Of a stretch of 33,332 bases of DNA, positions 3,189-21,983 are shown in pieces. The DNA comes from Methanothrix sp. (lineage in GTDB: Archaea > Halobacteriota > Methanosarcinia > Methanotrichales > Methanotrichaceae): contig JAPKXZ010000055.1 in NCBI GenBank assembly GCA_026394555.1, positions 1-33,332 on the forward strand, given 5' to 3'. The notes under the pieces were generated by a model. The model did not search any database. It had not been told where the DNA came from and was given only the letters and a program-made list of their open reading frames with translations. The first letter of the stretch is position 1, and each line of letters starts with the position of its first letter. The translations under genes and the position numbers were made by a program.

Positions 3189-4028
3189 TTACTTGGCCTG
3201 GCTCTCCGTCGCCAAAACCGTCTGGGTAAGCAGCATGGCCACCGTGAGCGGTCCTACCCCGCCCGGAACTGGGGTTATGGCCGAAGCAATATCCTTTACG
3301 GCATCGTAGTCCACATCGCCCACCGTCTTATCTCCTACCCGGTTGATGCCCACATCAAAGACAATGGCCCCTGGCCGGACCATCTCCTTCTTGATCAGGG
3401 CCGGAACACCGGCTGCTACTACCAATATCTCAGCATCTCTGGTGTGCTCGGCCAGATCTTTGGTAAAGACGTGGCAGACCTGCACCGTAGCATTGCGGCT
3501 GAGCAGCATGGCAGCCAGAGGCTTTCCTACTACGTTGCTGTGGCCCACAATCACCGCCTCAGCCCCCTCCAGCTTCTTGCCCAATCGCTCCAGGGCATAG
3601 ATGATGCCCCTCGGTGTGCAGGGCACGAGGCGCTCCGCGCCCAGAAGAAGGGCGCCCATGTTCACAGGATGAAATCCGTCCACATCCTTCTCAGGCATTA
3701 TGCTCATCATGGCCCTCTGCGGGCTCTGGCCTCCGGGCAGCGGCAGTTGCAGGAGAATGCCGTTTATGTCCGGACGGTCGTTCAGCTCCAATATTCTGGC
3801 TATGAGCTCTTCTTCAGAGCTGTTCTCGGGAAGCACCACATTCTCGGATCGAATGCCTACTCTGGTGCAGGCGGAATGTTTGAGCCGAATGTACATCTCT
3901 GAGGCAGGATTTTCACCCACCAGCACCGTGGCCAGGCCCGGCACAATTGCCCTCTCGGCCAGCTTTTTTACCCTTCGGGCCGTCTCGACCTCAACCTCTG
4001 CCGCCAGAGCTTTTCCATCGATTATCAT
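3189..4028 (-). CDS. folD: Bifunctional methylene-tetrahydrofolate dehydrogenase/cyclohydrolase FolD
   Basis: Interconverts methylene-, methenyl- and formyl-tetrahydrofolate. Visible motifs: [15 protein letters not shown] (catalytic-Lys region), [33 protein letters not shown] (dinucleotide-binding loop) and [15 protein letters not shown] near the C-terminus. A start at 4061 is possible, but the conserved N-terminus MIIDGKALA begins at 4028, where ATG overlaps the glyA stop as ATGA; 279 residues is normal. With GlyA next door it would supply folate-bound C1 units for biosynthesis, separate from the methanopterin pathway of methanogenesis, as described for Methanosarcina barkeri. Confidence 0.94.
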
Positions 4029-5272
4029 GCCAGGTCCGGATAGAGCGGGAACTGCCCGCACAGCTCTCTGGCCTGTCTGCGAACGTCGGCTATCGTCTCT
4101 TCGTTCGTAATGTTGCGAATCACAGAGGTGATCATGTCGGCGATCTGCACCATTTGCAACTCTTTCATGCCCCTGGTGGTCATGGCAGGTGTGCCGATGC
4201 GAATGCCGCTGGTGACGAATGGCGTGGCCGGATCAAAGGGTATCATATTCTTGTTCAGGGTTATGCCCGCCCTCTCCAGGGTTTCGTCGGCCACTTTACC
4301 GGTTATGCCTTCTTTGATCAGCTTGACCATCATGAGGTGGTTGTCCGTGCCGCCTGAGACCAGATCAAATTTGTTTTCCAGAAGCCGGTCCGCCAGGACA
4401 CGAGCATTCTTGACCACCTGGAACTGGTACTCCTTGAACTCGGGTGCCAGTGCCTCCTTGAAGGCCACCGCTTTTGCGGCTATGGCATGCATAAAAGGCC
4501 CGCCCTGAGTGCCCGGGAAGACGGATCTATCTACGGCAGCAGCAAGCTCCTCTTTACAAATGATCAAAGCGCCCCTTGGCCCGCGCAGGGTCTTATGAGT
4601 AGTAGTGGTAACGATATCCGAGTAGGGGACGGGTGAGGGATGCGCGCCCACGGCACACAGGCCCGCGATGTGAGCGATGTCGGCCATGACCTTTGCTCCT
4701 ACCTCGTCGGCAATCTCGCGGACGACCTTGAAGTCTATGGTCCGAGGATAGCTGGAGGCGCCCACCACTATGAGCTGAGGCTTGTTCTTTCTGGCAATGG
4801 CCGCCATCTCGGAGTAGTCGAGCATCTCTGTCTCGGGCGAGACGCTGTAAGGCACGATTTTGTACATCTTGCCCGAGAAGTTAACCGGGCTGCCGTGCGA
4901 GAGGTGGCCGCCGTGGGCCAGGTTCATGCCCATGATGGTGTCGCCAAGTTTGAGCACGGAAAAGTAAGCGGCCATGTTGGCCTGGGTGCCGCTCACCGGC
5001 TGCACATTGACATGCTCTGCGCCGGCAAAGAGCTTCTTGCAGCGCTCGCGAGCCAGATTCTCTGCCACGTCCACACAAGCCGTGCCGCGGTAGTAGCGTT
5101 TGCCTGGGTAGCCTTCCGCATACTTGTTGGTCATGACGCAGCCCTGGGCTTCCATGACGGCTCTACTTGCGAAGTTCTCAGAGGCGATCAGAATTATGTT
5201 ATTTCGCTGCCGCTCCAGCTCAGCCTGGATCGCGGCTGCGATTTCGGGATCTTCAACGCTTAAAGGCTTCAA
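4025..5272 (-). CDS. glyA: Serine hydroxymethyltransferase
   Basis: PLP enzyme that converts serine and tetrahydropterin to glycine and the methylene-carrier. The PLP-lysine motif is [13 protein letters not shown]. Other family signatures are [47 protein letters not shown] and [10 protein letters not shown]. Length 415 is typical. It is the first gene of a minus-strand operon with folD (4-base overlap), the DUF2121-like gene and mobA. Direct coupling to folD suggests that tetrahydrofolate is the acceptor, although some archaeal enzymes use tetrahydromethanopterin. Confidence 0.96.
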
Positions 5273-13812: not shown

Positions 13813-13880
13813 CCATGCCTGCGGTCTGCTAATAGCTCATAATAGGCTCATAATAGTATGATTACAAGGAGATGATTTCG

Positions 13881-14930
13881 ATGAAGGTAGGTTTACTATT
13901 CTTTCTGGCAATTATCATAGCAGCATCCGCTATGACCTCATGGGCAGAGGGAAGCTGTTCAGTGGGAGGATGCGGTGGAGGCGGAGAATCCTGGACGGAA
14001 TCGGCTCAGGCTTTTATGAACTCGGATGTCCCCCTTGTGGGAGTAACCGGAAATCAGAACGCTAAGTCGAGCAGCTTTAGTTCCGGAAGCTTCCAGGCTG
14101 GCCAGCCGGTAGGCGGAGCCATAAACAAAACCATTAACAGCACAATTCCCGTCTCAACTCCAATCGTTAGTGGGGTGTACGTAGCGCCAGGCAGCAGGGC
14201 AGATCTATTCCCGGCACCTATGATGCTAAAATCCCTGGACGCCATCTCGGAAAAGGATGTGGTGCTGGATGTATCGAATCGCCACTCTCCTGGCCAGGCT
14301 CACATCAGAGGCAGCGTTAACATCCCAGCTAAGAGCTTTTTCTATGAGAATGGAACGCTGCGTAATGTAACAGATCTGGCCGCGATTTTGGGCGGGGCGG
14401 GCATTTCCCAGGAAGATGCGGTGATGGTCTACAGCGACTCCTTTGCCTCGGGAGAGGCAACAGCGGTCCTCTTTATGCTGCGCTACCTGGGGCAGGAGAA
14501 CATAAGAGCCCTGGATGGCGGACTGGACAACTGGATTGCGGCCAGCTTGCCCATGGAGACGAAGGAGAACATGCGCTCGCCAGCAAGCTATGCTACGCGC
14601 CCTAGGGCTGAGCTTTTGGCCGATTATGATTTTGTCAAGTCAGGCCAGGCCCAGATGGTGGATGCCAGGAGCTTCCAGGATTTCGGCAAGGCCAGTATAG
14701 GCAATGCCACCCTCATCAACCCCGAAAATGTGCTGGAAGAGGGCAGGCTGAAGCCGGGTGCAGGGCTAAAGGATACCTTCGCTCGATTGAACGCCAGCCG
14801 GACGGTGGTGGTTTACTCGGATGATATTTATGGGGCTTCTGTGGTGTGGTTTGCTCTGCAGCTCATGGGATTCGATGCCAGGATTTATACCTGGCAGGAC
14901 TGGCAGGCCCATGAGGCCGGTCGGGCCTGA
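13881..14930 (+). CDS. Secreted double-rhodanese-like protein without catalytic cysteines
   Basis: A 349-residue protein with signal peptide MKVGLLFFLAIIIAASAMTSWA, a Cys/Gly-rich start (GSCSVGGCGGGG), a Ser-rich linker, and two rhodanese domains (about 110-225 and 240-345). Domain 1 has VVLDVSNRHSPGQAHIRGSVNIP and VMVYSDS; domain 2 has QMVDARSFQDF and VVVYSDD. In active rhodaneses the residue after VY is the catalytic Cys; here it is Ser in both, so sulfurtransfer by the usual persulfide is unlikely. The start with AAGGAG nine bases upstream is preferred over the ATG at 13872. It probably acts as an extracellular binding or structural protein. Confidence 0.75.
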   Translation: MKVGLLFFLAIIIAASAMTSWAEGSCSVGGCGGGGESWTESAQAFMNSDVPLVGVTGNQNAKSSSFSSGSFQAGQPVGGAINKTINSTIPVSTPIVSGVYVAPGSRADLFPAPMMLKSLDAISEKDVVLDVSNRHSPGQAHIRGSVNIPAKSFFYENGTLRNVTDLAAILGGAGISQEDAVMVYSDSFASGEATAVLFMLRYLGQENIRALDGGLDNWIAASLPMETKENMRSPASYATRPRAELLADYDFVKSGQAQMVDARSFQDFGKASIGNATLINPENVLEEGRLKPGAGLKDTFARLNASRTVVVYSDDIYGASVVWFALQLMGFDARIYTWQDWQAHEAGRA

Positions 14931-16766: not shown

Positions 16767-17192
16767 TCAATGACAACTGGGCTTCGATCCTGCGGAACCA
16801 CTTGGTATGACTGATGCTGGCGAGCTGGCCGGAGCTGGAGCAGTCTCGGCTCGTGACTTGCCATCGTATCCATTGTTCTTCAGCAGATTCTCAGACCAGT
16901 TATCTCCGGCATATAGTCTGGATTCATATCCTTGCAGTTCTAGAGCATACCACAGCAGAGATGCCTTGATTCCTGAATTTGAATATACTGCTATAGGTTT
17001 GTCTTTGTGCAAGCCCACAAATAGGTCCTTGAGGGCAGCCTCATCCTTGATCTTTCCGCTATCTAGATCTAGGACAGAATTAAATGGAATATTTTGCGAA
17101 CCGGGTATCGATCCGACTAAATATTCCTTAGATGATCTAGCATCCACTACCTGAACATCCTTTCCCTTTACGATCTCACAGCACCCCATACC
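16767..17192 (-). CDS. Rhodanese-like protein, catalytic Cys replaced by Ser
   Basis: A 141-residue protein (start at MGCCEIVKGKDVQ; frames from 17204 or 17258 are possible). The rhodanese fold is clear: VQVVDARSSKEYLVGSIPGS, QNIPFNSVL, PIAVYSNSGIKAS, LLWYALELQGY. The active-site loop has VYSNSG where catalytic members have VYCxxG. The tail is Ala/Pro/Ser-rich and ends KPSCH. It overlaps the 3' end of the QueG-like gene by 17 bases, so the two are probably co-transcribed. It resembles domain 2 of the secreted double-rhodanese protein at 13881 but has no signal peptide. Confidence 0.7.
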   Translation of the reverse strand, partial: GMGCCEIVKGKDVQVVDARSSKEYLVGSIPGSQNIPFNSVLDLDSGKIKDEAALKDLFVGLHKDKPIAVYSNSGIKASLLWYALELQGYESRLYAGDNWSENLLKNNGYDGKSRAETAPAPASSPASVIPSGSAGSKPSCH

Positions 17193-17979
17193 TCTGCACA
17201 TGCTCCCAGGCCCGGTGCTCCGCAGGGAATCGATCCCTTCGAGAGTAGATGGAAGCATCCTCCCGCCCGTACAGTTTTCTGTCCTCTCCCACCGGGCAGA
17301 CTTTGATGCATATCCCGCAGGGCGATATTCCCCGCTGGTTCAGCTCGGCGCTGTGAGCGGTGCAGCTCTTCTTGTCCGTGAGCCCTTGCGGATAGTCCTT
17401 CTCGTCCAATGCCTTTGCCGGGCACATCTTGACGCAGCGCATGCAGCGTGTGCACAGTATTTCATCGAGGAGCGGATCGGCGGGAAGCTCCGCTGCTGTG
17501 AAAACTGAGCCGAAGCGCACGCGGGGGCCAAACTCTCGCGTGAGCAGCATATTGTTTATCCCAAAATTGCCCAGACCCGCCTGGAGGGCAGCGTGTCTGT
17601 GGGAGAAGAAGGCCACCGGGTTTTTTAGCAGGGCCTTGATGCCGAAGTATCCGTCCCGGGGAACGAAGACGGACTGGTGTCCGTTCTCGCTCAAAAAATT
17701 GGCCAGGCGGTAGGTGTACTGGTCCAGCAGGCTGTTTACGGTGTTGTACAGCTCCCGGTAGTAAATGGAGGGTGACGTCTCCAGCACGGGCAGGCTAACG
17801 GGAAGGCCAATGACGATCACCGATTTCGCCTGGGGAAATATGGACTGAGGAAAGAACTCCTCCGGCATCCAGGGCACAAAGGGTGGGTCCTTCCAGCGCT
17901 CTACGCTCGCCACACCCATCAAGGGTATCTCCATCTTCTTGCATCTTTTGTGGACCGCTCTCAATAGATCTTCGCTCAT
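17176..17979 (-). CDS. [4Fe-4S] protein of the epoxyqueuosine-reductase-like (COG1600) family
   Basis: A 267-residue iron-sulfur protein. The N-terminal two-thirds match the QueG-like scaffold (MGVASVERWKD, SVIVIGLPVSLPVL, FFSHRHAALQAGLGNFGINN). The ferredoxin part has ILCTRCMRCVKMCPAKAL and later CGICIKVCPVG, enough for two 4Fe-4S clusters. Methanogens do not make queuosine, so the substrate is probably different. A start at 18024 is excluded by the TATA-like boxes at 18002-18034; ATG 17979 lies about 26 bases from the nearer box (leaderless). It is divergent from the NuoE/F/FrhB operon and precedes a rhodanese-like gene, suggesting a redox/sulfur role. Confidence 0.75.
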   Translation of the reverse strand: MSEDLLRAVHKRCKKMEIPLMGVASVERWKDPPFVPWMPEEFFPQSIFPQAKSVIVIGLPVSLPVLETSPSIYYRELYNTVNSLLDQYTYRLANFLSENGHQSVFVPRDGYFGIKALLKNPVAFFSHRHAALQAGLGNFGINNMLLTREFGPRVRFGSVFTAAELPADPLLDEILCTRCMRCVKMCPAKALDEKDYPQGLTDKKSCTAHSAELNQRGISPCGICIKVCPVGEDRKLYGREDASIYSRRDRFPAEHRAWEHVQRYGVL

Positions 17980-18001
17980 GAGAGATACTTTATTCTTATC
18001 A

Positions 18002-18034
18002 TTATTATATGTTATCGAAGGCAAGCGTTATATA
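18002..18034. promoter_or_regulatory. Divergent promoter region of the redox cluster
   Basis: Contains TTATTATATG (18002-18011), which on the minus strand is a TATA-like box about 26 bases before the QueG-like start at 17979. It also contains palindromic TATATA (18029-18034), placed to serve the plus-strand nuoE-like gene about 50 bases downstream. Both transcription units may be co-regulated from here. Confidence 0.45.
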
Positions 18035-18082
18035 GTTTTTCACGCTTAATGCTGATACAAATGCGAATAACGTGAGGCGAAT

Positions 18083-18553
18083 ATGATCGATGCGGACAGG
18101 GAGAAGCTGGATAATATAATTAAAAAATATGATGGAAAGGAAGGTTTCTTGATCCAGTTGCTCTTAGATTTGCAAAGCGAGCTGCATTGGATCTCCAAAG
18201 AAGCCATCGGGGAGCTTTCCTTGAGGCTTAAGATTCCAGCAAGCCAGATATTCAGGGTGGCGAGCTTCTACAAAGCGATGAATCTCTCGCCCGTAGGCCG
18301 TCACAAGGTATGCGTTTGCATGGGAACCGCCTGCCAGGTGCGGGGTGCTCAACGACTGCTGGATACAACCGAGTCAAAATTGGGCATAAAATCAGGGCAG
18401 ACTACGCCGGACAATAGCTTCACGTTAAATCGGGTCAATTGCCTGGGATGCTGCGCCATCGGCCCGGTAATAGTAGTAGATGACGATTATCACGGTCGAG
18501 TGGACTCCAAGAAGGTAGAAAGAATATTGGGGCTACTTGCATCCGATAGTTAG
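18083..18553 (+). CDS. NuoE/HydC-like [2Fe-2S] subunit
   Basis: A 156-residue thioredoxin-fold [2Fe-2S] protein of the NADH dehydrogenase 24-kDa family. The N-terminal helical part (GKEGFLIQLLLDLQSELHWI) is typical. Cluster ligands lie in VCVCMGTACQVRGAQRLL and NRVNCLGCCAIGPVIVVDD, matching CxxxxC...CxxxC. GTGAGG precedes the ATG. It is the first gene of a three-gene operon with the NuoF-like protein (26 bases downstream) and the FrhB fusion. In bifurcating complexes this subunit pairs with the flavin subunit and supports electron transfer; that is the inferred role here. Confidence 0.88.
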   Translation: MIDADREKLDNIIKKYDGKEGFLIQLLLDLQSELHWISKEAIGELSLRLKIPASQIFRVASFYKAMNLSPVGRHKVCVCMGTACQVRGAQRLLDTTESKLGIKSGQTTPDNSFTLNRVNCLGCCAIGPVIVVDDDYHGRVDSKKVERILGLLASDS

Positions 18554-18579
18554 AACTAGATAAGAATAATGGGGAATAG

Positions 18580-20517
18580 ATGGCAATACTTACATCAATT
18601 CAGGATCTGGAGATCTTGAGAGATGAAATTGAACACAAGAGAGACCCCAGGAGAAAAGAGGTGGCAATCTGCACCGGCACCGGGTGTCTGGGCCTTGGGG
18701 CACGAAAGGTGGTCAGCGCCTTTGAAAGAGAGATTGAGAGAAGAGGTCTGCAAAAAGAGATCAGCATCAAGGAGACGGGATGTCCCGGCTTTTGCGAAAA
18801 AGGAACTCTGGTAGTTGTATATCCAGAGGGAATCTATTACATGGGAGTACAGCCGGATGATGTGCCGGAGATCGTGGAGGAGACCATTCTCAAAGGCGGG
18901 CTGGTGGCGCGCCTTCTTTACACAGATCCTGCCACCGGCCAAAAGGCAATACGAGAAGATGATATCCCATTTTATAATCATCAGATGAGATTTTTAATAA
19001 AAAATAATATACAAATAAATCCAAAAAATATAAACGACTACATCGCTCTGGGCGGTTATGCCGCTCTGACCCGCGCCTTATCGCAGATGACGGCCCTTGG
19101 GGTGATTGAAGAGATTAAAAAGTCGGGCCTCCGAGGGAGAGGCGGAGGCGGATTTCCCACCGGGATAAAATGGGAATCGACGGCGCAAGCTTCCGGCCAG
19201 CCCAAGTACGTGATCGTAAATTGCGATGAAGGAGACCCGGGTGCCTTCATGGATCGCGCTCTCATGGAGGGCAATCCGCACAGCGTTTTGGAGGGGCTGA
19301 TGATTGGAGCCTATGCGGTGGGAGCGCATAGCGGCTACATCTATGTGCGTATGGAGTATCCACTGGCCGTGGAAAATGCCAAATTCGCCCTGCATCAGGC
19401 TCGAGAGCTGGGCCTTCTCGGCGAGAACATACTGGGCAGCGGATTTGATTTCGACGTATCCGTACATAGAGGGGCGGGAGCCTTCGTCTCTGGTGAGTCA
19501 ACCGCTCTCATGAGCGCCCTGGAGGGCAAAGTGGGCGAGCCCCGGCCCAAGTACGTACATACCTCGGAGTGCGGCGTCTGGAATCGACCGAGCGTCCTCA
19601 ACAATGTGGAGACCTGGGCCAATATCCCTCTCATCATCAACCGGGGGGCCGAATGGTTTTCATCCATTGGAACGGAAAAAAGCAAGGGAACCAAGATATT
19701 CTCGCTGGTAGGAAAGGTCAACAATACCGGTCTGGTGGAAGTTCCCATGGGCATGAGCCTGGCCGACATAATTTACAAGATAGGAGGCGGCATCCCTGGC
19801 GGAAAAAAGCTCAAAGGAGTGCAGACCGGAGGGCCTTCGGGCGGAATAATTCCGGCCCGGCATTTGCAGACGCCGGTTGATTTCGACGAGCTTAAAAGCC
19901 TTGGTTCCATGATGGGCTCAGGCAGCATTATTGTCATCGACGAAGATACCTGTGCTGTCGATTTGGCCCGTTACTTTGTGGACTTTCTCTGCGATGAGTC
20001 CTGCGGCAAATGCCTGCCCTGCAGGGAAGGCTTGTTGCGAATGCGAGAGATTCTGGACGGCATAGTTTCCGGCAAAGGGCAGGATGGCGACCTGCAAATT
20101 CTTAAAGAAATAGCCGACCTGATGAGAAAGACGTCGCTGTGTGCATTGGGCCGCACAGCCGTCAATCCGGTTTTAAGCACTATGGCTCACTTTCCCGATG
20201 AATATGCGGCCCATATAATCGAGAAAAGGTGCCCCTCTCTGGCCTGCAAATCTCTTGTTTCGTATTATATCGAGCCAAAGGTCTGTACCGCATGCGGCCT
20301 GTGCCAGAAGAACTGTCCAGAAGGAGCAATCGAGGAAGAGGAGGGCAGCAACTGTGTCATAGATCAATCCCAATGTACTCGATGCGGCATTTGCTTCGAT
20401 GTCTGTTCACCCAAAACCCGCGCCATCAAGAAGGTCTCCCCCCGACTTTCTCCGTATTTTTCTTCTTCTTCCTCTTTGACCCGTTTGGGGAAGGCAAAAA
20501 GAGGTGATAAGGCATGA
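18580..20517 (+). CDS. NuoF/HydB-like flavoprotein, NAD(P)-binding subunit
   Basis: A 645-residue protein with HydB-type architecture. There is an N-terminal thioredoxin-like [2Fe-2S] domain (EVAICTGTGCLGLG, ETGCPGFCEKG). The FMN/NAD core follows: GLRGRGGGGFPTGIKWE, NCDEGDPGAFMDRALME, GAGAFVSGESTALM. The N3-type 4Fe-4S site is SCGKCLPCREG with TSLCALG. Two C-terminal 4Fe-4S ferredoxin motifs are CTACGLCQKNCPEG and CTRCGICFDVCSP. The same layout is found in the bifurcating subunits of HydABC and related complexes. Its TGA overlaps the next ATG (ATGA). It probably oxidises or reduces NAD(P)(H) on FMN; the exact nucleotide is not predictable. Confidence 0.92.
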   Translation: MAILTSIQDLEILRDEIEHKRDPRRKEVAICTGTGCLGLGARKVVSAFEREIERRGLQKEISIKETGCPGFCEKGTLVVVYPEGIYYMGVQPDDVPEIVEETILKGGLVARLLYTDPATGQKAIREDDIPFYNHQMRFLIKNNIQINPKNINDYIALGGYAALTRALSQMTALGVIEEIKKSGLRGRGGGGFPTGIKWESTAQASGQPKYVIVNCDEGDPGAFMDRALMEGNPHSVLEGLMIGAYAVGAHSGYIYVRMEYPLAVENAKFALHQARELGLLGENILGSGFDFDVSVHRGAGAFVSGESTALMSALEGKVGEPRPKYVHTSECGVWNRPSVLNNVETWANIPLIINRGAEWFSSIGTEKSKGTKIFSLVGKVNNTGLVEVPMGMSLADIIYKIGGGIPGGKKLKGVQTGGPSGGIIPARHLQTPVDFDELKSLGSMMGSGSIIVIDEDTCAVDLARYFVDFLCDESCGKCLPCREGLLRMREILDGIVSGKGQDGDLQILKEIADLMRKTSLCALGRTAVNPVLSTMAHFPDEYAAHIIEKRCPSLACKSLVSYYIEPKVCTACGLCQKNCPEGAIEEEEGSNCVIDQSQCTRCGICFDVCSPKTRAIKKVSPRLSPYFSSSSSLTRLGKAKRGDKA

Positions 20518-21983
20518 CCAAGTTGAAGATCAAGATCGACGGTCATGAGATGGAGATGGATGCCAAGGGTGGCTCGGCCACTATTCTGGAGGCGGCTAGG
20601 CTTGCCGGCATCCATATTCCAACGCTATGCCATCATCCTTCTATCAAGCCTTATGGGTCTTGCCGGCTGTGCACTGTGCAAATCGTTAAAAATGGCCGGA
20701 AAAAGTTTGTCACCGCCTGCAACTATCCGGTAGAGGAGGGGCTTGTTGTAATTACCGATTCTGCGGAAGTGGCAGAGATCAGGAAGATGATCCTGGAGCT
20801 TCTCATAGCTCGATGCCCCCAGGAGAAGAGATTGCGGGAGACTGCCGGAGAATATGGGATTTTCAAGCCACGCTTCTTGCAGGAAGATAAAAGTTGCATC
20901 CTTTGCGGACTATGCTACCGGATCTGCGAAGAGCTGGTGGGCGTCTCGGCCATAAATGCTCAAAATCGAGGAGTTTCCAGGGATGTGGATACGCCCTATG
21001 GAGAATTATCGGAAGACTGCATTGCATGCGGGGCCTGTGCCCTGGTCTGTCCCACAAAGTCCATACTGGAAAGAAAAAACATCTACCCGCTGTCCTGTGT
21101 CGATATCAAAGAGATGGAAGAGGAGTTCCTGTGTGGAACGATCGATAATGATTTGGGTGTCAACAGGGAAATGTTTGCCGGCAAGAGCTGCATTGAGGGG
21201 CAAGATGGGGGCATGGTAACCTCAATTCTCCGTCGAGGAATTGAGGCGAAGCTGTTGGATGCGGCGGTGGTTGCCCAAAAAAATAAAAGGTGCGGCGCGA
21301 ATGCAGCTTTGGTTGATGAAACTGAATCAATTTTACAGGCAAAGGGGACAAAATACGTGCGCGTCTCCGTCATCGCTCCGCTCCTGGAGGCCTTAGAGAG
21401 GGGCAAAAGGAGAATTGCCGTTGTCGGCACGCCCTGTCAGATCCGAGCCGTCAGGAAATTACAGAGGCAGGGTTATTTTAACGATGCTGAGATATTTCTC
21501 ATAGGCCTCTTCTGTTTCGAAAGCTTCGATTATGAATCCCTTAAAAGCCGCATGGGAGAGCTTTTCGGCATCGATCTGGATAAAGCCGAAAAGACGCAGA
21601 TTGCCAGAGGAAAATTCATAGTGACAGTAGGCGGCAAAGAGTACTCCTGCCCGGTGCGGGTGCTTAAGAGCCAGGTGAGGGCAGGCTGCCAGTTTTGTGG
21701 TGATCTGGTCAACCGGCTGGCAGATATTTCCATAGGTTCAATTGGAAGCGAGGAAGGATACTCCACGGTGATCGTCAGATCGGAGCGTGGGGCGCGGCTG
21801 TTGGAAGCGACGTCGTTTGACCGAAAAGAGATAAACCGAGATGAGGTCGTCAAGCTGGCTGCAATTAAGAAGAAAAATGCAGATAAAAATTTTGCAGGGA
21901 TCTTGGCAGGGCTGCCGGAACGGCTGGAAGCTGAGAGGAGGGAAAGGGCTCCTGTTTGCAGCAATTTAGAAATATTATCTTGA
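20514..21983 (+). CDS. Fusion: [2Fe-2S] ferredoxin + two [4Fe-4S] sites + FrhB-like F420 oxidoreductase domain
   Basis: A 489-residue protein. Residues 1-80 are a NuoG/HydA-type [2Fe-2S] ferredoxin (C39, C50, C53, C69). Residues 125-180 carry CILCGLCYRICEE and CIACGACALVCPT for two 4Fe-4S clusters. From about 210 to the end is a coenzyme-F420 hydrogenase/dehydrogenase beta-subunit (FrhB) domain, with VVGTPCQIRAVRKL and CQFCGDLVNRLADISIGSIG, the conserved FAD/F420 and cluster signatures. The N-terminal half looks like the electron-entry part of HydA/NuoG, but the H-cluster or complex-I remainder is replaced by FrhB. Inferred role: passing electrons between F420 and the NuoEF-like subunits. Confidence 0.88.
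   Translation: MTKLKIKIDGHEMEMDAKGGSATILEAARLAGIHIPTLCHHPSIKPYGSCRLCTVQIVKNGRKKFVTACNYPVEEGLVVITDSAEVAEIRKMILELLIARCPQEKRLRETAGEYGIFKPRFLQEDKSCILCGLCYRICEELVGVSAINAQNRGVSRDVDTPYGELSEDCIACGACALVCPTKSILERKNIYPLSCVDIKEMEEEFLCGTIDNDLGVNREMFAGKSCIEGQDGGMVTSILRRGIEAKLLDAAVVAQKNKRCGANAALVDETESILQAKGTKYVRVSVIAPLLEALERGKRRIAVVGTPCQIRAVRKLQRQGYFNDAEIFLIGLFCFESFDYESLKSRMGELFGIDLDKAEKTQIARGKFIVTVGGKEYSCPVRVLKSQVRAGCQFCGDLVNRLADISIGSIGSEEGYSTVIVRSERGARLLEATSFDRKEINRDEVVKLAAIKKKNADKNFAGILAGLPERLEAERRERAPVCSNLEILS

Follow-up and report, generated by a model that had tools for sequence, protein, structure and literature searches.

Methanosaetaceae is the older name of the Methanotrichaceae, the methanogen family from which the DNA described here is derived. 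Schut et al. (2022; PMC9304861; this and the other papers cited are represented by extracts of their text) defined the Bfu family and, within it, the F420-Bfu (Type 1, BfuB clade 45) with two sequences from the Methanosaetaceae; they proposed that F420-Bfu oxidises NADH and ferredoxin and provides F420H2 for biosynthesis. Coupling between NADPH, NAD+ and ferredoxin has been demonstrated for an archaeal member of the family, Nfn-Bfu, with Pyrococcus furiosus as host (PMC9304861). Chadwick et al. (2022; PMC9012536) describe FrhB8, a protein whose gene is clustered with NuoF and thioredoxin genes and which occurs almost exclusively in anaerobic methanotrophic archaea (ANME). Here we describe three adjoining genes in a 33,332-nucleotide stretch of Methanothrix sp. 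(assembly GCA_026394555.1, contig JAPKXZ010000055.1; hereafter the window) that quite probably encode a soluble F420-Bfu, i.e. a BfuABC enzyme with an FrhB domain on BfuA. An F420-Bfu was already predicted for this family in 2022, and that prediction is not new (PMC9304861). What goes beyond the literature searched is the spread of the trio to other archaea, an altered B2 cluster site and a fusion to a carbon monoxide dehydrogenase (CODH) domain in one Bathyarchaeon.

If the published prediction is right, F420 would be joined to NADH and ferredoxin via a bifurcating core built on flavin mononucleotide (FMN) and iron–sulfur clusters and not on flavin adenine dinucleotide (FAD). It would show how acetoclastic methanogens that have no hydrogenases and an Fpo without FpoF make or use F420H2, and in ANME-1 it would allow F420H2 gained from methane to supply biosynthesis with NADH and ferredoxin.

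Architecture of the locus and its closest relatives

The original prediction had described three tightly packed genes for a NuoE-like protein, a HydB-type NuoF with extra clusters and a HydA-like/FrhB fusion. All three open reading frames lie where it had placed them, with 26 bases between the BfuC and BfuB genes and a 4-base overlap between the BfuB and fusion genes, and Pfam bears out the three assignments:

18083–18553, forward strand: BfuC (NuoE/HydC-like, 156 aa), thioredoxin-fold [2Fe-2S] subunit with cluster C1 (Pfam 2Fe-2S_thioredx, PF01257, E 7e-48)
18580–20517, forward strand: BfuB (HydB/NuoF-like, 645 aa), FMN/NAD(H) subunit with clusters B1–B5, from Pfam, PDB matches and conservation
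20514–21983, forward strand: BfuA-FrhB fusion (489 aa), from Pfam, PDB sequence matches, conservation, and a model with fold search

BfuB contains Complex1_51K, SLBB and NADH_4Fe-4S domains, preceded by a thioredoxin-like 2Fe-2S domain at the N-terminus and followed by a 4Fe-4S dicluster at the C-terminus. A 51K/FMN, SLBB, NADH_4Fe-4S and C-terminal 4Fe-4S protein adjoining a thioredoxin-like 2Fe-2S BfuC is the arrangement of the Bfu family, which Schut et al. define by InterPro domains (PMC9304861) and for which the Pfam counterparts are used here. The fusion combines Fer2_4 and a Fer4 dicluster with FrhB_FdhB_N and FrhB_FdhB_C (E 9e-39). An F420-dehydrogenase (FrhB) domain thus lies inside BfuA, as in Type 1 F420-Bfu, and is seen by Pfam, in the structure model and by fold search. 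The locus shares with the F420-Bfu of Schut et al. the organism family, the three-subunit plan, the F420-dehydrogenase domain in BfuA, the BfuBC core and the proposed reaction (PMC9304861). The F420/NAD(P)/ferredoxin oxidoreductase that had been read from the window is upheld as a prediction and matches this published type.

The best PDB matches of BfuB are B subunits of bifurcating enzymes, namely 7t2r_B of NiFe-HydABCSL (749 bits; 586 residues, ungapped) and 8a6t_B of FeFe-HydABC (726 bits), compared with at best 356 bits for the NuoF chains of complex I. Both enzymes also have a related BfuA N-domain, but their third reaction site is a hydrogenase, whereas here it is an FrhB F420 domain. 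Residues 8–182 of the fusion are closest in the PDB to 9mqx_A, from an entry titled as an electron-bifurcating tungstopyranopterin aldehyde oxidoreductase, and the remainder is closest to F420-dependent sulfite reductase (Fsr) and FrhB. The linker that joins the 2Fe-2S domain to the dicluster has about 25 residues and a single cysteine, compared with about 48 residues in 8a6t_A; HydA and NuoG carry a His-Cys cluster, for which there is therefore no room at this place in the fusion. With Fsr, FrhB and 8riu_B the fusion shares the FrhB fold, the FAD site and a [4Fe-4S] cluster of the domain's own (PMC10229431, PMC3591093), and Fsr likewise has an N-terminal 2×[4Fe-4S] domain (PMC10229431). Unlike in those proteins, the F420 domain is joined here to a HydA-type 2Fe-2S domain and a BfuBC core.

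Conserved cluster ligands and the predicted F420 site

The cluster ligands were compared in 24 F420-type rows. These omit L047, L048, L050, L051, L053, L057, L058 and L061, which are partial or come from the same genome as another row, as well as loci with a partial or missing HydB, e.g. L049, L055, L063–L065, L068, L073, L079 and L087. In BfuC, where spacing assigns C79, C84, C120 and C124 to C1, these four residues and C123 are invariant in all 24 rows. The BfuB cysteines of B1, B3, B4 and B5 are equally invariant, and the B2 ligands C458, H545, C551 and C556 are present throughout; the B3–B5 cysteines are absent from all three NuoF/FdsB outgroups. The same 24/24 conservation applies in the fusion to the [2Fe-2S] ligands (C39, C50, C53, C69), to those of the two [4Fe-4S] clusters (C128, C131, C134, C138 and C169, C172, C175, C179), and to C308, C334, C392 and C395, which belong to the [4Fe-4S] cluster of the FrhB domain that begins at about residue 210 and also holds the FAD/F420 site.

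In FrhB, Mills et al. (2013; PMC3591093) assign the cluster to Cys104/134/192/195, place Lys75-Tyr76 near FAD and a 163-IGKGK turn near F420. By our reading, their counterparts in the fusion are C308/C334/C392/C395, K280-Y281 and 363-IARGK. Across 19 rows Q230, D231, G232, G233, T279, Y281 and I363 are invariant, and K280 and G366 nearly so. The fusion therefore has the four cysteines for a [4Fe-4S] cluster, the FAD helix, the Lys-Tyr loop and the I-x-K/R-G-K turn of the FrhB family.

An AlphaFold model of the fusion, built on the 19-row alignment, has a mean predicted local distance difference test score (pLDDT) of 68.6. Ten-residue means range from 67 to 93 between residues 191 and 460, and the model is weak (pLDDT under 50) at residues 122–191, a region that covers the two middle [4Fe-4S] clusters. 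In VIA-align comparisons the model matches 8riu_B, a component of an F420-reducing CODH, with Z 29.5 (root-mean-square deviation (rmsd) 4.1, 304 aligned), and the B subunits of Frh with Z 27–28 (rmsd 3.4–3.5 Å, 256–261 residues); its N-domain matches bifurcating A subunits with Z 13.8–15.4. The FrhB domain, on whose FAD/F420 site the original prediction depended, has kept both its cluster cysteines and its FAD/F420 motifs and superposes on FrhB.

Position in the BfuB tree

The NuoF tree that the original prediction had called for was built with 24 F420-type, 23 Hdr-type and 23 other BfuB rows and three non-bifurcating outgroups (two complex I NuoF and FdsB); it was made by a quick method, its outgroup branches are long, and its rows do not include biochemically characterised bifurcating enzymes. 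The 24 F420-type sequences and two of the Hdr-type (L091, L094) form one group with a support of 100 in the Shimodaira–Hasegawa-like approximate likelihood ratio test (SH-aLRT), and the complex I NuoF/FdsB outgroups fall outside (SH-aLRT 99). BfuB is thus placed with cluster-rich BfuB-type proteins and apart from complex I NuoF/FdsB. The F420-type rows alone require three changes in this tree and may have a single origin. Membership of complex I (NuoEF) is rejected by the extra B3–B5 clusters, the tree position and the gene context; no nuo-type genes occur among the scanned neighbours of the trio.

The Hdr-type loci form an observation in their own right. BfuA carries the FAD/ferredoxin half of HdrA in L094:2704-7836 (Methanophagales), in L091:1883-7785 (Dehalococcoidia) and in 21 other loci. 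The Hdr label was given where BLAST matched the third protein of a locus to the HdrA-like stretch of L094, a criterion that could include other FAD proteins. In L094 the N-half of HdrA lies immediately upstream of NuoE, and the two pieces score 419 and 456 bits against HdrA2. Such HdrA-linked BfuA loci, 21 of them labelled by BLAST alone, may represent an 'Hdr-Bfu' arrangement, a type that the extracts of Schut et al. (PMC9304861) do not include.

Distribution and gene order across archaea

The full-length fusion occurs in 17 of the 37 same-family genomes, the window's included, and is therefore no chance product. Pieces of it are found in three more: at two contig ends in G017, at a contig start in G020 and as an internal C-terminal piece in G018. 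Among the matches in 23 other genomes of the same class there was no fusion. Fourteen of the 17 genomes have the three genes together on a single contig, which in G001 begins within NuoE, and in the remaining three the contig ends inside HydB. The fusion of L070 (Methanothrix sp.) is 92% identical to that of the window. In G018 the fusion piece (L065:2391-3832, residues 309–489) lies directly against a QueG-like gene and the remainder of the trio is missing, by deletion or misassembly.

Beyond the family, a scan of species genomes (best 80 of 588 stretches) returned at least 19 loci with a long fusion: eight of Methanothrix/Methanotrichaceae type (including L073, titled only 'Methanosarcinales'), six of ANME-1/Methanophagales, two of other Methanosarcinales/Methanomicrobia, two of Bathyarchaeota and one of Methanolliviera. 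A profile search across the phylum (E 1e-100, sample of 392 genomes), whose loci overlap with those of the scan, found the fusion in 38 genomes, 29 of them in family f10 (taken as ANME-1), five in f1, three in f12 (whose g47 is taken as Methanolliviera) and one in f37. Twenty stretches from this search comprise 17 with the whole trio, two cut by contig ends and one (G104) with a fusion and no adjoining HydB. The search for other genomes with the same gene order, as the original prediction had proposed, thus finds the gene set kept together in Methanotrichaceae, ANME-1, Methanolliviera and Bathyarchaeota. Compared by description, this is wider than the F420-Bfu of Schut et al., for which only the Methanosaetaceae are named (PMC9304861).

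The FrhB8 'NuoF-Trx' cluster of ANME likewise unites an FrhB-family protein with a NuoF homologue and thioredoxin genes, as which NuoE could be annotated, but it is not termed HydB-like or Bfu in the extracts of Chadwick et al. (PMC9012536). Matched by description, it is probably the same complex as that encoded by the trio loci.

Proposed reaction and direction

All cofactor sites needed between F420 and NAD/ferredoxin are present in the sequence, the odd B2 site excepted. The three proteins would assemble as one complex, with hydride transfer between F420/F420H2 and FAD taking place in the FrhB domain. Single electrons would then pass from the [4Fe-4S] cluster of FrhB through the two [4Fe-4S] clusters and the [2Fe-2S] cluster of BfuA to B1 and the FMN of BfuB. 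In BfuB the electrons would divide between NAD(H) at the FMN and ferredoxin at the C-terminal B3/B4, the 2×[4Fe-4S] domain proposed as the ferredoxin port, or would be merged from these two, with C1 of BfuC and B2 of BfuB acting as a moving gate. The overall reaction would be NADH + Fd(red) + 2 F420 <-> NAD+ + Fd(ox) + 2 F420H2, where Fd is ferredoxin. That the bifurcation is coupled is suggested by membership of the Bfu family.

By our arithmetic, the potentials listed in Schut et al. (−280, −500 and −360 mV for NADH, ferredoxin and F420, respectively; PMC9304861) make the confurcating direction favourable by only about 12 kJ per 2 F420H2. This is near equilibrium; the reaction is therefore expected to be reversible, with a direction that depends on the cell. 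The likelier direction in Methanothrix is from NADH and reduced ferredoxin to F420H2, where the complex may serve the redox balance of the methanogen, as the original prediction had it. In the methane-oxidising ANME-1, expected producers of F420H2, the reverse direction, F420H2 oxidation, is favoured.

The altered B2 site and points against an F420-Bfu

Several points weigh against the reading of the trio as an F420-Bfu. The most specific concerns B2, whose positions were located by the ungapped alignment with 7t2r_B (offset 20) and the residue numbers of PMC9304861. Position 496 of BfuB, equivalent to C476 of the NiFe-Bfu, is valine in 22, isoleucine in one and glutamic acid in one of the 24 F420-type rows; the published five-residue B2 ligand set is therefore impossible here. 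According to Schut et al. (PMC9304861) this fifth position is cysteine in the NiFe enzyme, and threonine in the FeFe types as well as in about two thirds of 1558 sequences. The V/I/E of the present F420-type BfuB accordingly differs from their Cys/Thr. The two nearest Hdr-type BfuB also have valine at the position of C476, and Cys, Thr or Ser is found there in 17 of the 23 Hdr-type rows and 20 of the 23 other rows. We can offer no explanation beyond a B2 cluster that may be held by fewer protein ligands. Furthermore, Schut et al. note that the B2 histidine is absent from non-bifurcating homologues (PMC9304861), but here the histidine, C458 and C551 each occur in two of the three outgroups and therefore do not separate the groups; the positions that do are C556, the only one of B2, and the B3–B5 cysteines.

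The remaining points concern folds, occurrence and biochemistry. The N-domain of the fusion gives similar scores (Z about 13–15) for bifurcating A subunits, for other FeFe hydrogenases and for complex I, and was rejected as proof of an origin from HydA. The FrhB fold is also that of the chlorophyll reductase 5dqr (Z 25.2), and by itself is therefore no proof of F420 use. Only 11 of the 22 well-sequenced Methanotrichaceae genomes (at least 90% complete, at most 5% contamination) have the fusion, nine in full and two in pieces; the complex is therefore not needed for acetoclastic life in general, and the same even split makes comparative physiology feasible. In G104 (taken as ANME-1; contigs C46 and C11) the fusion is unlinked from NuoE/HydB, with HydB on another contig, and in G284 the fusion and HydB are also on different contigs. 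Finally, a biochemical test of F420-Bfu was not found in the literature searched, which leaves most subscription journals outside.

The lack of the fifth B2 ligand, common to all 24 rows, speaks for a non-bifurcating NADH:F420 oxidoreductase as an alternative. Such an enzyme would exchange two electrons between NAD(H) and F420 along the same chain, leaving the C-terminal clusters of BfuB idle or as a loose dock for ferredoxin. The potentials of NADH and F420 are close, and the NADP counterpart of the reaction is already served by npdG (Fno), which is above the cut-off in 34 of the 37 same-family genomes and present in two copies in this one, so that an NADH version would not be odd. Yet the eight cysteines of B3/B4 and the four of B5 are invariant in the F420-type rows and absent from the outgroups, and Schut et al. 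find such clusters missing in the non-bifurcating homologues that they list (PMC9304861). We regard this explanation as distinctly unlikely. The widespread npdG also led us to reject the idea that the F420-Bfu is explained by the lack of another enzyme between F420 and pyridine nucleotides.

Neighbouring genes for CODH and other F420 or ferredoxin enzymes

In the Bathyarchaeota genome SKYB89 (L083:3600-12979) the gene order is cdhA, fusion, NuoE, BfuB with CODH epsilon, cdhC and cdhD. This BfuB is fused to a CODH epsilon domain (PF02552) in an 823-aa frame that is open throughout, in one metagenome-assembled genome only. The mer gene, which encodes the F420-dependent methylene-tetrahydromethanopterin reductase, lies 44–60 bases upstream of NuoE-HydB-fusion in two Methanolliviera-type loci (L158:324-5216, L160:1347-6238), and npdG is convergent to the trio in G033. 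The mer and CODH neighbours, as F420 or ferredoxin enzymes, count in favour of an F420-Bfu. An association with CODH in ANME-1 (L080/L166, with cdhA 3.4 kb downstream) was not counted, because the cdhA there is accompanied by an epsilon-like and a separate FrhB protein.

The fused epsilon domain invites a broader proposal, which we think unlikely: that F420-Bfu is a wide archaeal module, in Wood–Ljungdahl and acetoclastic lineages fed with low-potential electrons derived from CODH, physically so via the BfuB-epsilon fusion in at least one Bathyarchaeon, and with an altered B2 gate for which four residues, not five, act as ligands. If true, the fusion would join electrons from CO or acetyl-CoA, NADH and F420 in one machine without free ferredoxin.

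The same fusion within an operon of CODH and acetyl-CoA synthase would also suit an enzyme that acts in vivo as a ferredoxin:F420 oxidoreductase, with NAD(H) in a regulatory or minor role and F420H2 made from CODH-derived ferredoxin in a methanogen that has Fpo without FpoF. Methanothrix does re-oxidise acetate-derived ferredoxin and has Fpo without FpoF (PMC12918732). The FMN/NADH domain of BfuB is nevertheless intact and highly conserved, and simple ferredoxin:F420 exchange could be left to a separate FrhB protein of 365 aa, the one further FrhB protein of this genome and of a kind with FrhB-domain matches in many relatives. We consider this a very unlikely account of the trio.

Other redox genes and possible partners in the genome

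The original prediction had named a hydrogenase or dehydrogenase encoded elsewhere as the possible true partner of the NuoF-like protein. Its hydrogenase part can be set aside: FeFe hydrogenase gave no match in this genome (96% complete, 75 contigs), and the single NiFe-family match is FpoD-like, in a frame flanked by FpoB and FpoH that by our reading of the Fpo genes is an FpoCD fusion. Given 96% completeness in 75 contigs, the absence of a hydrogenase is no proof. The dehydrogenase part was tested in part. The genome has one HydB, with no other HydB/NuoF found, and two FdhA-like proteins on contig C24.

These FdhA-like proteins (916 and 924 aa; L066:4837-16090) have NuoG-type N-domains and stand in a redox cluster without its own NuoEF, surrounded by GltA-like and sulfide-dehydrogenase-like FAD proteins, npdG (Fno) and an FmdB/FwdB-like protein. 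Over about 100 residues their Fer2 N-domain shares 47% identity with the fusion's. This similarity and the single HydB/NuoF of the genome would fit a BfuBC that also, or mainly, serves other BfuA-like proteins such as the C24 pair, as an Fdh-Bfu that shares the genome's only NuoEF. On the other side, HydB is tied to the fusion by gene order, and the GltA-like and sulfide-dehydrogenase-like FAD proteins offer the C24 pair another route to pyridine nucleotides. We judge a shared BfuBC to be highly improbable and retain the F420-Bfu as the probable product of the trio.

Neighbouring features in the window

Ahead of the trio lies a short stretch with candidate expression signals, identified by reading:

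18025–18082, forward strand: stretch between the divergent gene and the trio, with a TATA-like TTATATAG and a GTGAGG purine stretch ahead of the ATG

The divergent gene (17176–18024, reverse strand) encodes a 4Fe-4S protein with weak similarity to QueG/reductive dehalogenases and also adjoins the trio in several of the closer Methanothrix genomes. QueG-like, DUF5611 and proteasome ATPase genes accompany the trio in the window and in several of these genomes; next to the trio of G004, G026, G031 and G033 they were not detected. Two rhodanese-domain proteins are encoded near the trio (13872–14930, forward strand; 16767–17258, reverse strand), and relatives of the former are also located downstream of the trio in the ANME-1 loci L075 and L078. 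Further away (3189–5272, reverse strand), adjoining genes for FolD-like and glycine hydroxymethyltransferase proteins represent C1 genes of the tetrahydrofolate type in a methanogen.

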